From Thermococcus barossii (GTDB lineage Archaea > Methanobacteriota_B > Thermococci > Thermococcales > Thermococcaceae): a DNA stretch of 64,000 bases. Numbering within the stretch: position 1 is the first letter of the stretch; each line of letters starts with the position of its first letter. The stretch lies in assembly GCF_002214465.1 (NCBI RefSeq), contig NZ_CP015101.1:1495013-1559012 (forward strand), in the 5' to 3' direction. The notes beneath the pieces were generated by a model. That model did no database searches and had not been told where the DNA came from. It was given only the letters and a program-made list of their open reading frames with translations. Made by a program: the position numbers and the translations under genes. Positions 31,623 through 37,999 of the stretch are shown here, in pieces.

Positions 31623-33110
31623 ATGGACGGGGATAAATTCATACTCTCCCTCGACGAGGGAACCACGAGTGCGAGGGCGATAGTCTTCGACAGGGAAAGC
31701 AACGTCGTGGGGATGGGCCAGTACGAGTTTCCGCAGCACTACCCAAGGCCAGGGTGGGTCGAGCACAACCCCGAAGAAATCTGGAACGCCCAGTTCAGGG
31801 CCATCAAGACGGCACTGGAGAGGGCTAAGGTAGAGCCGGGTCAGATAGCGGCGATAGGCGTCACCAACCAGCGCGAGACGACGATAGTCTGGGACAGGAG
31901 CGGCAAGCCACTCTACAACGCGATAGTCTGGCAGTGCAGGAGAACGGCCGAGATGGTGGAGGAGATAAAGAGGGAGCACGGGGACGTAATTAAGGAGAAG
32001 ACCGGCTTGGTTCCAGATGCGTACTTCTCGGCGAGCAAGCTCAAGTGGCTCCTCGACAACGTGCCAGGATTGAGGGAGAGAGCTGAGAGGGGCGAGGTTC
32101 TCTTCGGGACGGTGGATACATTCCTCATATACCGCCTGACCGGTGAGCACGTCACCGACTACTCCAACGCCTCCAGAACGATGCTCTTCAACATCAAGAA
32201 ACTCGACTGGGACGACGAGCTGCTCGAAATCTTTGATATCCCCGCGGAGGTTCTGCCGGAGGTCAGGGAGTCGAGCGAGGTCTATGGCTACACGAAGAGG
32301 GAGCTTTTGGGAGCCGAAATCCCGGTGAGCGGGGACGCGGGCGACCAGCAGGCGGCACTGTTCGGCCAGGCCGCTTTTGAAGCTGGGATGGTAAAGGCAA
32401 CCTACGGTACCGGAAACTTCATTTTAGCAAACACCGGCAAGACCGTCCGCTATTCGGACAACCTCCTCACCACAATAGCGTGGGGGCTCAAAGGAAAGGT
32501 CACCTATGCCCTTGAGGGGAGCGTCTTCATAACAGGAGCGGCAGTTCAGTGGCTCCGCGATGGAATAAGAATCATAGAGAGCGCCCCCGAGACGGAGGAG
32601 CTAGCGAGAAAACTTGAGAGCAACGAGGGCGTTTACTTCGTCCCGGCCTTCGTCGGCTTGGGAGCGCCTTACTGGGACCAGTTTGCCAGGGGTCTGATAA
32701 TCGGCATAACTCGCGGAACGGGAAGGGAGCACCTCGCGAGGGCAACGCTTGAAGCGATAGCCTACCTCACCCGCGACGTCATAGAAGAGATGGAGAGGCT
32801 CGTCGGCATAAAGGAGCTCCGCGTCGACGGAGGAGCGACGGCGAACGACTTCCTGATGGAGTTCCAGGCGGACATACTTGGAAAGCGCGTCATAAGGCCC
32901 GTCGTCAAAGAAACAACCGCCCTCGGAGCGGCTTACTTAGCAGGACTGGCCGTTGACTACTGGGATGGCATGGAGGAGATTAAGGACCTCTGGAGGGCCG
33001 AGAGAATCTTTGAGCCGAAGATGGACCGGGAGACGAGGGAGAGGCTCTACCGCGGCTGGAAGGAGGCTGTAAAGAGGGCACTGGGGTGGGCTAAGATCGC
33101 AGAAGCATGA
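31623..33110 (+). CDS. glpK: Glycerol kinase
   Basis: FGGY-family kinase that phosphorylates glycerol with ATP. The N-terminal phosphate motif [15 protein letters not shown], the glycerol-binding [11 protein letters not shown], and the C-terminal [20 protein letters not shown] are present. 495 residues from the ATG at 31623, which follows GGTGGT by 4 bases. Its product is used by the glycerol-3-phosphate dehydrogenase genes at 36.5-39.6 kb; an AT-rich island now separates them. Confidence 0.95.
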
Positions 33111-33130
33111 AATTAAAATAATGAAGAGAA

Positions 33131-35089
33131 TTATAATCTCGCTATCTCCTTGACAATCTTTTCCAAAGTTTTAAGGGACTCTCCAGAGGATTTTATCAGC
33201 TTGTCTTTAATGTCATCTGTAGGGTTATACCACAATTCGATAAATCTTTTCATTGGAGCATAATTCTTCAAGTCATCTTTTCCGAGAATAATATTGTCTT
33301 TTCTCAATTTACTAAATACTATATGCCAGTTCTTGGAACCTAAATCTCTTTTTATTACGTCTTCTAGATTTTTGTTCAAGACCGCAAAGTTCTTTTTTAT
33401 AATAGATGAGGCAATATTTCGTTTAGACTTATATCCCACAGCATTGAACAAATGCTTGTTTTGTTCATCATTGTCTCGGTCAAAATCCCAGATAATATAT
33501 GTGGGAATATTAAACCCCGTAAACAACAAGTATGAACTAAGAATATTACCCTTCCCCCCAACAGGTATTATTGAGATATTGTTTCCCTCAAGGTCTATGT
33601 CATTATATTCTGAGACAACTTCCAATGCTGCCTTATCGCTCCACCCCTCAACTAGAACAACTTTATCTGCAAAGAATCCCTCATTTATTACAGGGTTTAT
33701 GGTAGTGGTGAATTTTTTAAGTTGCCTTGATGGCGACTCTATGCCAAATTCCTCCAAGTCTTTCATGAATTGGTGTTGTGAATATAAATACACTTTAGTT
33801 TCTTTTGGTTTCTTTGATTTTCGCTTTCCTTCCTTCCGGAGCAATCTTAGGTTGTTAAAAGTATCTATGCTGACTAAAAATGGTGAATGGGTAGAGTACA
33901 TAACCTGTATGTTAAATCCCTCAAAGGTACTTCCAGCGAGAGACTTGAACAATTTGTGAAGGTGTTTCTGACGCTGGGGATGTTGATATAACTCCAACTC
34001 TTCAATAATTAAAAATAAAGTAGGATTTGATTTGATAGTTATTTCTTTCTTTTCTGTTTTAGTAATCTCATATTTTTTCTTAACAATATATTGCAACAGT
34101 GAGAACAAGAGAGCTCTTTGTGTGCCATGCCCAACTTTATCAACATGCACTTCGAATCCATCTTCATTAACTAATACCTCGGGCGTTGGCAACGGTAACT
34201 GAAATTCTTCAAGATTATTCCATTTGATATATGCCCTAGTATTTGGTGCAAATTTTTCCAGAATTTGTGTTACTTCATGGCCAAGTTCATAAAATAGTCC
34301 CATGTTTTCTTTTTTCCGTCCTTTCTTATTCATGCCCTCAAGTATTTTCTTATACCTTTTTTCAAGTCTATTGAACTGGGGGTTAGATCTTATGTGACTT
34401 TCTATTATCATTTGAGTAATCTCTGTAATTATACTCCCTCTTTTGTACTCAGCTTCTTCAGAGACGTCCTTAACAGCAGGAACAAATATCAATTTCATAA
34501 ACTTTCCAATTTTTCCCTTGCCAACTTCTCTATATCCAAAAAATTGGATGTCCTTTAGGACAGGCTTCTTTTTTTCTGGATGATTTGCCTCGTATTCTTT
34601 AAGTGTCTCGAGTATCTTTTTCTTAGTGGGATTCTCCCCAAGATCCGGTAGACCCGGAAATTCACTCCGTAATTTGTTGTACTTTTTTATTAAATCCTCT
34701 TTTTTTGAAGGTAACTCCGAGAATTGTGGGATACCCATGGTAATTCCATGGTAAGTTTGATTTGATTTAGAGGGGGGAAATTTCATTATTTTCACGACTT
34801 TCATGTATCTTTTGCCATTTTCTTCAATAACGTAGCCCCTGAATTCATTTATTTCTTGCTCATTAGTCAATTCAAACGTCACAGTAATTTTGATTGGTGA
34901 ATCAGTATTTCTTGCATAGAAATCTTCCTCTGAGTACTTAGCATTTGGATTAAAAAACAATTCTAGGGCTTTTAGTACTGAGGATTTCCCTGCCCCATTT
35001 CTCCCAATTAAGATTGTTAGGTCGTCAATAGGAATTGTTACATGTTTTAATGACCTGAAATTTTCAATTTCAATTCCAACTATCCGCAT
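33131..35089 (-). CDS. OLD-family ATP-dependent endonuclease (AAA ATPase + TOPRIM)
   Basis: 652-residue ATPase-nuclease of the overcoming-lysogenization-defect type, usually antiviral. Walker A GRNGAGKSS at 29-37, signature-like VGHGTQRALL at 319-328, Walker B TLFLIIEELE from 357 and the H-switch STHSP at 399-403 form the ABC-type ATPase. A TOPRIM domain follows: Glu481 in VEGWSD and DFDRD at 535-539. The ATG at 35089 follows GGGGATT. Codons are AT-rich, unlike neighbours, which points to transfer. No UvrD helicase (GajB) is beside it; the divergent gene is a different protein. Confidence 0.9.
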   Translation of the reverse strand: MRIVGIEIENFRSLKHVTIPIDDLTILIGRNGAGKSSVLKALELFFNPNAKYSEEDFYARNTDSPIKITVTFELTNEQEINEFRGYVIEENGKRYMKVVKIMKFPPSKSNQTYHGITMGIPQFSELPSKKEDLIKKYNKLRSEFPGLPDLGENPTKKKILETLKEYEANHPEKKKPVLKDIQFFGYREVGKGKIGKFMKLIFVPAVKDVSEEAEYKRGSIITEITQMIIESHIRSNPQFNRLEKRYKKILEGMNKKGRKKENMGLFYELGHEVTQILEKFAPNTRAYIKWNNLEEFQLPLPTPEVLVNEDGFEVHVDKVGHGTQRALLFSLLQYIVKKKYEITKTEKKEITIKSNPTLFLIIEELELYQHPQRQKHLHKLFKSLAGSTFEGFNIQVMYSTHSPFLVSIDTFNNLRLLRKEGKRKSKKPKETKVYLYSQHQFMKDLEEFGIESPSRQLKKFTTTINPVINEGFFADKVVLVEGWSDKAALEVVSEYNDIDLEGNNISIIPVGGKGNILSSYLLFTGFNIPTYIIWDFDRDNDEQNKHLFNAVGYKSKRNIASSIIKKNFAVLNKNLEDVIKRDLGSKNWHIVFSKLRKDNIILGKDDLKNYAPMKRFIELWYNPTDDIKDKLIKSSGESLKTLEKIVKEIARL

Positions 35090-35162
35090 TGTCAATCCCC
35101 AAGTTATTATACACAAAAAATATTTAAAGATTATTCTTGTACCAAGTCATTGGGTGACCCCA

Positions 35163-36263
35163 ATGAATAAGTATCGACACAACACATATAGGAGATATAA
35201 GATATTTATACAGATAGCAAAAAGATACTGGTATGACATAGTCAAATACTCAGAAAAAAGCTGGAAACACACATTTGATATTATCGAAGGAATAACATTA
35301 AAACACAATGAACCCTCGTATGTGGGCGCATATTTATACTATGGTCTTTCTCAGCTAAATCGCGACTTGCTAATAAAATCTCTATTTGGGAAAGAACTTG
35401 ATATGAATGGATTTCAACTAAAATTTGGAGGAATATTTGTTCATCAAAATCCAATAGTAGAAGTAGAGCCAAGTAATCCAAGTGTTAAAGGTTTGAGTAG
35501 AAGAACTTGTGAAATTGGAGATCTCCTTATAATTTTCACGTTTGTTGACAAAAACAATGTCCCATTAATAAACAGGGCATTTTTATCTCAAGCTAAAATT
35601 GATGACACCCCTGTAAGAGGAGCCCAGCGTATTCTATACGAGAAGGATGTAAGATTTCGGTTTAAGCGACCCTTGGAGGAAAACATCCAAAAGAACTCTT
35701 GTGCTGTAACACGACACAATAGATATCCTAGAAGATTTCCTTCACGATGGCCAAAATCAAGAGGATTAAAATATCTTAGACTGTACCCTTTAGAAAAAGA
35801 AACAAGACTAGAGCTTTTGGACAGAGATAAGTTTTGTCCATGCTTGGAATATTGTTATTGTAGACGTCCTTGGTGTTGTAATGAATACCCCTTTGGATGC
35901 TCGATTTTTGGGTTGATGACAGGTCAGGATGGATGGAAGTTTTCATTAAACCCAAATCCACCTCTATATATATGTGGGTGGAACCATATTATGCATGATT
36001 TAATAACCGATACTGCTCATAGAGTATCGACCTTAGGAGGATTAAAAAAAGGAAAAGACCGTTTTAATAGGGGCCAATATCTAAGTTATCTCGTGTCTCA
36101 GTTCAATAGGTTTGAAAACATCAATGAACATTTTATTGGAATGAATCCACTGGATCCTGAACCACCAGGAAAAACTGAAAGCCCAGAAGGCCCCAATGGG
36201 ATAAATACTATGCTAATAATGGTTAAAGATACCAAGACAGAATCCGAACATACACAAGAGTGA
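35163..36263 (+). CDS. Cysteine-rich protein with a nuclease-like E-x2-D...Q-x-K signature
   Basis: Unrecognised 366-residue protein, divergent from the OLD gene across 73 bases and equally AT-rich. Residues 117-145 read EIGDLLIIFTF followed by FLSQAK: Glu117, Asp120 and Gln143-x-Lys145 on predicted strands resemble a PD-(D/E)XK nuclease core in its Q-x-K form. A cluster of seven cysteines at 225-246 (CPCLEYCYCRRPWCC...C) could bind zinc or an Fe-S cluster. The ATG at 35163 follows GGGTGA. It may be the partner of the OLD protein in a defence system; both assignments are inference. Confidence 0.65.
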   Translation: MNKYRHNTYRRYKIFIQIAKRYWYDIVKYSEKSWKHTFDIIEGITLKHNEPSYVGAYLYYGLSQLNRDLLIKSLFGKELDMNGFQLKFGGIFVHQNPIVEVEPSNPSVKGLSRRTCEIGDLLIIFTFVDKNNVPLINRAFLSQAKIDDTPVRGAQRILYEKDVRFRFKRPLEENIQKNSCAVTRHNRYPRRFPSRWPKSRGLKYLRLYPLEKETRLELLDRDKFCPCLEYCYCRRPWCCNEYPFGCSIFGLMTGQDGWKFSLNPNPPLYICGWNHIMHDLITDTAHRVSTLGGLKKGKDRFNRGQYLSYLVSQFNRFENINEHFIGMNPLDPEPPGKTESPEGPNGINTMLIMVKDTKTESEHTQE

Positions 36264-36328
36264 CAAGGCACAAATAGGCGAAATTAATGAAGTTCAACGA
36301 AAGCATTTTCCAAACTTTTATTTTTAAG

Positions 36329-36439
36329 TCAAACAGGGAAAATCCAAACGCCACTTCTGCTCATGGCCCGAGTGTCCACCAATGTGCTATCCCCTTATGC
36401 CCAAATCTGTTCTCTACGTGCCGCTGGACAAAACCTGAG
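36329..36439 (+). pseudogene. Short cysteine-rich coding remnant
   Basis: An open stretch of 36 codons without a start codon reads HFCSWPECPPMCYPLMPKS, then VLYVPLDKT and a stop. The composition (three Cys, many Pro) looks protein-like rather than random, and it lies at the right border of the AT-rich island. It may be the tail of a gene broken by insertion or deletion. I do not recognise it. Confidence 0.3.
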
Positions 36440-36499: not shown

Positions 36500-37999
36500 A
36501 TGAAGACACGGATAGCCATAATCGGTGCCGGCGTCGTTGGGGCGTCGATAGCCAGGGTTCTCAGCCAGTACGATGGGCTTGAGGTTCATCTCATCGAGAG
36601 GAACGCCGACGCTGGAATGGGGGTCAGCAAAGCCAACACGGGAATAATCCATCCCGGACACGAGGACGACCCCGGGAAGTACCCGCTAAGGGCAAAACTG
36701 TGTGTCCAGGGAAACAGGCTCTGGTACCAGTGGACGAAGGAGCTTGGAATCCCCGCGAAGTGGCCTGGTGAGCTCATGGTTGCCCTCGAAGAGGAGGACC
36801 TGAAGGTTGCCGAGTACTACCTCGAACTCGCCCAGAGGAACGGTGTTCCGGGTGTCAGGCTGGTCGAGAGGGAAGAGCTCCTGAGGCTTGAGCCCAACGC
36901 GAACCCAAACGCCGCGGGAGCGCTGTGGGCTCCAACAGCAGGAGTCATGTCCTCCCCGATGGCGGCGGTGGCGCTCACCGAGAACGCCGTTGACAACGGG
37001 GTCAGGTTCCACCCGGAGACTGAAGTGCGTGGGATAAAGGTGGAGAAAGGTGAGGTAAAGGGCGTTGAGACCAACGGGGGGTTCATTGAAGCCGACATCG
37101 TCATAAACGCCGCCGGTCTCTACACGGACAGAATCTCGGCCATGGCCGGCATAGACCACTTCACCATACGCCCCAGGAAGGGCGAGTACTACATCTTCGA
37201 CGACGATGCCGGGCCGAAGGTCAGGAGGATAGTCCACCAGACCCCCACCCCCACGACGAAGGGCGTCTACGTAATCACCGAGATGAACGATGGGGTGATG
37301 ATAGGACCCACCGCCGAGGATCTGCCGGAGGATGCAAAGGACGACACCTCGACGACCAGGGAGGGACTGGAGTTCGTCTGGAAGATGGCGAAGAAGCTTG
37401 TTAAGGGACTTCCCCCAAAGAACAGGGTGATAAGAACCTTCGCGGGCCTGAGGCCAGAGCCCCCCGACGGGAGGTGGATAATAGAGGCCTACGACGATCC
37501 CTGGGGCTTCATAAACGTTGCCGGAATAAGGTCACCGGGACTCACCGCCGCGCCCGCAATAGCGCACTACGTGGTCAGGGAGCTGATTCAGGGCAAACTG
37601 GAGGTAAAACTGACCAAAAAGTCCCACTGGAATCCCTACAGAAACGCCTTCTGGTTCAAGGCCCTGCCGAGAGAGAAACAGGCAGAGCTGATAAGGAGGA
37701 ACCCCGCCTACGGAAGGGTAATCTGCATGTGCCGCACGATCACCGAGGGTGACATAGTGGACATAATACACCGCATGAAGCGGATGGGCGTTAAGACCAT
37801 CACCCTCGACGGCGTTAAGCTGAGGAGCGGCGTCATGTCAGGGACCTGCCAGGGCTCGTACTGCAGGGTGAGGATAGCCAACATCATCGCCAGGGAAACC
37901 GGAATTCCGCTCTGGAAGGTTACCCTAAAGGGAGAGGGAACGGAGTACGGCATCGGCGACATAAAGGTTCTCCTGAGGGGGGAGAGGGATGAGGAGTGA
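36500..37999 (+). CDS. glpA: Glycerol-3-phosphate dehydrogenase-like FAD protein with BFD-type [2Fe-2S] domain
   Basis: FAD oxidoreductase of the DAO/GlpA family, 499 aa. FAD site IGAGVVGASIARVLSQY at the N-terminus, GLRPEPPDGRWIIE in the substrate domain, and a C-terminal BFD-like domain with CMCRTITEGDI and GTCQGSYCRVRI for a [2Fe-2S] cluster. With the next two genes it matches the three-part anaerobic glycerol-3-phosphate dehydrogenase described in T. kodakarensis. RBS GGAGGG. The 3' end overlaps the next gene by 11 bases. Confidence 0.88.
   Translation: MKTRIAIIGAGVVGASIARVLSQYDGLEVHLIERNADAGMGVSKANTGIIHPGHEDDPGKYPLRAKLCVQGNRLWYQWTKELGIPAKWPGELMVALEEEDLKVAEYYLELAQRNGVPGVRLVEREELLRLEPNANPNAAGALWAPTAGVMSSPMAAVALTENAVDNGVRFHPETEVRGIKVEKGEVKGVETNGGFIEADIVINAAGLYTDRISAMAGIDHFTIRPRKGEYYIFDDDAGPKVRRIVHQTPTPTTKGVYVITEMNDGVMIGPTAEDLPEDAKDDTSTTREGLEFVWKMAKKLVKGLPPKNRVIRTFAGLRPEPPDGRWIIEAYDDPWGFINVAGIRSPGLTAAPAIAHYVVRELIQGKLEVKLTKKSHWNPYRNAFWFKALPREKQAELIRRNPAYGRVICMCRTITEGDIVDIIHRMKRMGVKTITLDGVKLRSGVMSGTCQGSYCRVRIANIIARETGIPLWKVTLKGEGTEYGIGDIKVLLRGERDEE

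Follow-up and report, generated by a model that had tools for sequence, protein, structure and literature searches.

The window analyzed here is the whole stretch of 64,000 nucleotides taken from contig NZ_CP015101.1 of Thermococcus barossii. Between glpK, which ends at position 33110, and glpA, which starts at 36500, it carries an insert of about 3.2 kb whose only genes are a divergent pair: one encodes a protein of the OLD family, in which an ATPase is fused to a TOPRIM nuclease, and the other a protein of 366 amino acids that we call the partner. The features of the locus are listed below, where G023 is the genome of a second Thermococcus species.

33111..36346, unstranded: AT-rich insert holding the OLD and partner genes only, delimited by GC content and by the breaks in similarity to insert-free relatives
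33131..35089, minus strand: gene for the OLD-family ATPase-TOPRIM nuclease, 652 amino acids, identified with Pfam, PADLOC, PDB entry 6p74 and the orthologue in G023
35117..35128, unstranded: TATA-like box AAAATATTTAAA, common to both divergent genes and the longest block conserved between the intergenic DNA of the window and of G023
35153..35157, plus strand: GGTGA, ribosome-binding site of the partner gene as read from the sequence, kept in G023
35163..36263, plus strand: gene for the partner, a PD-(D/E)XK-like protein of 366 amino acids from an unnamed family, assigned by family profile match
35511..35597, plus strand: codons 117-145 of the partner, with the core motif E117-x2-D120...R138...Q143-x-K145, invariant in 11 of 11 family members
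35835..35900, plus strand: cysteine cluster C225-C246 of the partner, with seven cysteines, five of them kept in G023

The borders of the insert were set by comparison with close relatives that lack it, similarity to which ends at about 33102-33110 and picks up again at about 36346. When we examined the DNA of 29 other Thermococcaceae glpK loci, neither an OLD nor a partner gene was found in any of them, and in 27 glpA lies directly downstream of glpK, with a gap of about 0.15-0.25 kb in 19 loci and of about 0.9 kb in 8. The GC content of the insert is about 35% against about 57% in its surroundings; the two genes stand at 35-36% and the adjoining glpK at 58%, in line with the AT-rich codon use, unlike everything around it, that the preliminary description had noted for the pair. 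The insert lacks integrase and transposase genes as well as terminal repeats, and in the window the pair is flanked directly by metabolic genes and not by further defense genes. Elsewhere in the window, coding-like DNA at positions 2301-2423 holds 3.2 tandem copies of a 39-bp unit, a short repeat that probably corresponds to a repeated stretch of protein.

The OLD protein is a genuine, intact member of its family. Its start codon is the ATG at 35089, the mechanical reading frame of 661 codons beginning at a TTG at 35116, and on a single chain it combines an AAA_15 domain (residues 10-415; 186 bits, 2.1e-54) with an OLD-like_TOPRIM domain (481-546; 69.8 bits, 2.9e-19), both far over the Pfam cut-offs and numbered on the 661-residue frame. 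PADLOC ranks its Old model best (1.5e-58), followed by AriA and GajA, the GajA models giving an E-value of 1e-36, and the best relative in the PDB is the OLD of Thermus scotoductus (6p74, 7e-22). Alignment to 6p74 and to the orthologues showed that the Walker A motif GRNGAGKS (29-36), the H-switch STHS (H401) and the TOPRIM acids E481, D485, D535 and D537 are intact and common to the orthologues, just as had been claimed from the letters of the window; the four acids match the metal ligands as defined previously (PMC7049728). The complete 1.92-Mb genome contains one OLD-like TOPRIM match. A search of viral contigs yielded no relative of the OLD. We also considered that the OLD may be a GajA that had its helicase replaced; the closest OLDs on plasmids (29% identity) adjoin other genes, not relatives of the partner.

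The partner starts with the ATG at 35163, so that the divergent start codons are 73 bp apart, and this gap contains a single TATA-like box, in agreement with the earlier suggestion that both genes share one short promoter region. The box AAAATATTTAAA is the putative promoter of both genes, and together with the ribosome-binding site it makes up the best-conserved part of the intergenic DNA when the window is compared with G023.

As the preliminary description had anticipated, the partner could not be placed in any named family: it has no match in Pfam, PADLOC, NCBIfam, PHROG or the PDB. Single-sequence searches of contigs, and of phages and plasmids by tblastn, returned no relative outside G023. 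A profile built from these two sequences detected a distant relative in genome G017 (E 8.8e-4 over the motif), while weak profile matches outside the motif region (E 0.01-0.3) were discarded. Further relatives came to light with a consensus query composed from the motif region: plasmids of Halorubrum, Haloprofundus, Paraburkholderia and Thioclava carry them, as does coliphage P2-EC48 in its lysogenic-conversion ('Z') region. These finds alone cannot prove the motif, since the query itself contains it, but an independent profile of six relatives that excluded the window sequence recovered the window partner with an E-value of 2e-9 among 2357 reading frames, with no false matches. Likewise, a non-window profile of nine relatives scored it at 36.7 bits (E 3.6e-10), against 5.4 bits for the best of 2000 shuffles. 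Family members gave nothing above noise in Pfam, NCBIfam, PADLOC or PHROGs, so existing defense scans would overlook this family. Searches of viral contigs with several queries added no members of the family, and a broader set of 396 genomes related to that of the window added none beyond Thermococcaceae.

Across the 11 aligned members, E117, D120, R138, Q143, K145, Y208 and G346 are invariant, and Q155 is kept in 10. The invariance of the first five of these indicates that the motif is more than chance. The residues D120...Q143-x-K145 conform in 11 of 11 members to the PD-(D/E)XK-type pattern D...(D/E/Q)-x-K, some of these members having been found with a query that contains the motif. Thus, the residues that had been proposed as a nuclease motif turned out to be the invariant core of a family, and the partner quite probably has a PD-(D/E)XK core; a predicted nuclease of this type is our best reading of its sequence. 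Structures were predicted and their folds searched, as had been proposed along with that motif. The AlphaFold models of the window partner (pLDDT 36, shallow alignment of 4 sequences) and of a relative (pLDDT 42, 8 sequences) are of low confidence; both have a helix followed by beta strands around the motif, and the model of the relative has no fold match in the PDB. SSB and the other proteins that Foldseek paired with this low-confidence model, all at E > 0.6, carry no meaning, and the family profile found neither a nuclease nor a solved relative in the PDB. The nuclease fold is therefore a prediction from the motif pattern. The seven cysteines noted earlier are present (225, 227, 231, 233, 238, 239 and 246), five of them (227, 233, 238, 239 and 246) being kept in the G023 orthologue. 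The cluster is absent from all other relatives, which ruled it out as a family-defining feature; judged from the alignment, it is a local elaboration and not a family trait.

Examination of the DNA around the known family members revealed no adjoining OLD in 9 of 11. In Thermococcaceae, relatives of the partner occur in a cassette of constant order, in which an Eco57I/MmeI-type methyltransferase is followed by a small protein of about 182 amino acids, a KwaB-like protein of about 370 and the partner relative of about 304. We found it in four genomes and one misbinned contig (L086:7275-13806; L024:3577-10076; L087:1618-8244; L088:2066-8623; L025:2-4151). A PLD-SNF2 helicase comes next in L024, L087 and L088, two of which also have Abi-like genes. 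The small protein looks membrane-bound from its sequence. The two KwaB-like scores, 24.2 and 18.0 bits, lie under the Pfam cut-off of 26.3, so this label is a lead only; the trio of small protein, KwaB-like protein and partner relative may be a separate module. One of the cassettes lies in a metagenome-assembled genome of a Helicobacteraceae bacterium, for which reason we searched Campylobacterota genomes, and no relative of the partner was found there. That contig (JALUKO010000075.1, L025:1-5053) is Thermococcaceae-like, with protein identities of 69-93%, and is therefore probably misbinned.

In coliphage P2-EC48 the family member is the second of two adjacent open reading frames of unknown function in the lysogenic-conversion region (L067:424-2587; ORF2, 1538-2587). 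ORF1 has no match, and neither frame was found in E. coli genomes. The old locus of P2 is a known defense hotspot that holds alternative defense systems (PMC10568477), which makes the presence of a family member here suggestive of defense, and ORF1-ORF2 is a candidate two-gene prophage defense unit.

The window-type partner is present in 2 and the window-type OLD in 4 of 94 Thermococcaceae genomes, and both partner genes adjoin an OLD. G023 carries the pair at the same glpK-glpA site and in the same divergent order, so the neighborhood check that had been suggested did find the two homologues together elsewhere. Identity between G023 and the window is 66% for the OLD and 60% for the partner against 86% for glpK; the pair is AT-rich in both hosts and far more diverged than glpK. 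Between the two genomes, pS is 0.75-0.78 and pN 0.20-0.26. Reading frames that stay intact and key residues that are kept while synonymous sites are saturated point to purifying selection. The other two OLD genes lack the partner. In G073, an OLD pseudogene lies beside a degraded glpK fragment (L010:7550-9831), a decayed version of the same locus, while an intact glpK is present elsewhere in the genome. In G083, the OLD is intact and has the genes for FBPase and aldehyde ferredoxin oxidoreductase on either side (L009:1839-6153). It stands close to the position that the glp block occupies in the window, but in the opposite orientation. Given an OLD without a partner in both G083 and G073, the two genes are genuinely but not obligatorily associated, and since only two genomes carry the pair, at the same insertion site, one ancestral insertion could explain it.

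Taken together, the observations of the preliminary description are confirmed and its interpretation is partly supported: the idea of a defense pair is favored by the recurrence in G023 and by the defense-type surroundings of the partner's relatives, but the pairing is not obligatory, as G083 and G073 show. From this context, we think it rather likely that the insert has a role in defense. In its most likely form it would be a rare two-gene variant of OLD-type defense, with an optional second metal nuclease from an unnamed family. The two genes would be transcribed apart from one TATA region, having been inserted as a unit beside glpK. An OLD dimer would bind ATP, sense nucleic acid of an invader or replication and repair intermediates, and nick or cleave it through the TOPRIM site, while the partner would act as an additional nuclease, or as one licensed by the OLD, that destroys the invader or shuts down the cell. 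Because an OLD stands alone in G083, the OLD here probably retains some independent activity, with the partner as an add-on effector or modulator. Nuclease activity of the partner, its physical cooperation with the OLD and an antiviral role are what we infer, and for the whole proposal, a compact defense-type module of an OLD with a PD-(D/E)XK-like nuclease as its effector or modulator, we see the chances as evenly balanced.

Other explanations for the pair have to be weighed against this module. The OLD could be a stand-alone Class 1 defense gene and the partner an independent one, such as a single-gene nuclease or restriction-like enzyme, with insertion and promoter region shared by chance. 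The OLD is indeed intact and alone in G083, relatives of the partner occur without an OLD in other settings, and the best PADLOC match is the single-gene Old, Class 1 OLDs being single genes (PMC10568477). Nevertheless, both window-type partners in the 94 Thermococcaceae genomes adjoin one of only four such OLDs, and the divergent arrangement with its shared TATA box is conserved; we regard a chance association as possible but rather unlikely. A divergent pair with 73 bp between the starts would also suit a regulator or antidote, that is, a toxin-antitoxin-like pair in which the partner has retained its PD-(D/E)XK-like core to bind DNA and is not an effector nuclease, and the partner-free G073 does have its OLD as a pseudogene. 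However, the candidate catalytic residues are all invariant in 11 distant members, which argues for catalysis, and G083 tolerates an intact OLD without the partner, so that a role of this kind seems improbable to us.

The pair might instead be cargo that a virus or another mobile element left behind and that now has no function; an AT-rich insert in a house-keeping locus and the patchy distribution would agree with such an origin. Against this stand the intact frames, the conserved key residues and the values of pS and pN, as well as an insert without integrase, transposase or terminal repeats, and we consider inert cargo very unlikely. Finally, the OLD might be a housekeeping protein that the partner assists. 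The model here would be Cran1 of Sulfolobales, like ours an archaeal OLD with ATPase and TOPRIM, which is essential, acts in cell-cycle progression and is not antiviral (PMC12796447). Nonetheless, Cran1 is inherited vertically across its whole order (PMC12796447), whereas the window-type OLD is rare (4 of 94 genomes, one copy a pseudogene) and lies on an AT-rich insert, which leaves a housekeeping role with hardly any likelihood. The one archaeal OLD examined in that work proved to be a cell-cycle protein (PMC12796447).

Compared with the established OLD classes, the protein described here is closest in architecture to Class 1 (P2 Old, Thermus scotoductus OLD and E. coli YbjD), with which it shares the ABC ATPase-TOPRIM fusion and the metal ligands, although at 652 amino acids it is longer. 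Class 1 OLDs are single genes by definition, while classes 2-4 act in multi-gene defense (PMC10568477); here, a conserved divergent partner that shares the promoter region adjoins the OLD in the window genome and in G023, and the OLD is alone in G083. Gabija (GajA-GajB, Class 2) is likewise a two-gene system with an OLD, and GajA models also match ours, but its GajB is a UvrD-like helicase, whereas no UvrD/PcrA/Rep-like helicase adjoins the OLD in the window and the partner has no GajB or helicase match. Retron OLDs (Class 3) and PARIS (AriA-AriB, Class 4) resemble the pair in joining an ATPase and a TOPRIM nuclease in multi-gene defense. The former have an adjacent reverse transcriptase and ncRNA, and no reverse transcriptase occurs among the neighboring frames; the latter splits the ATPase (AriA) from the TOPRIM protein (AriB), which are fused in the window, with no AriB. 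In the absence of an adjoining UvrD helicase, a reverse transcriptase or a split AriA/AriB, the OLD is not of the Gabija, retron or PARIS type as these are defined, which agrees with the remark in the preliminary description that the partner fits none of these pairings.

With the PD-(D/E)XK superfamily (Cas4, AddB, Shedu and Cap4 types), the partner has in common the invariant D...Q-x-K core with a preceding E, and Q155-x3-Y159 downstream of it resembles the QxxxY motif of RecB/Cas4-like nucleases. No named member was matched by profile, in the PDB or by fold, however, and the cysteines of the partner are not arranged like those of the Fe-S site known from Cas4 and AddB. As for Kiwa (KwaA-KwaB), neither the KwaA membrane protein nor KwaB adjoins the window pair. 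Lamassu couples the SMC-like LmuB with the nuclease LmuA, an ABC/SMC-type ATPase with a PD-(D/E)XK-type nuclease. Likened to it by description only, our pair would share this working principle, but the OLD has a TOPRIM nuclease of its own. The unnamed partner family adjoins three different kinds of defense-type genes in archaea and bacteria. We raise, as a tentative and somewhat doubtful possibility, that the locus represents a new class of OLD defense, in which the OLD is coupled to a nuclease of an undescribed PD-(D/E)XK-like family serving archaeal and bacterial cassettes (OLD, KwaB-like and P2 prophage region) as a general, interchangeable effector; in the window member, the cysteines may form an additional metal or Fe-S site. 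If true, this would add a fifth arrangement to the OLD classes reviewed to date (PMC10568477), and the first among them whose partner is a second nuclease.
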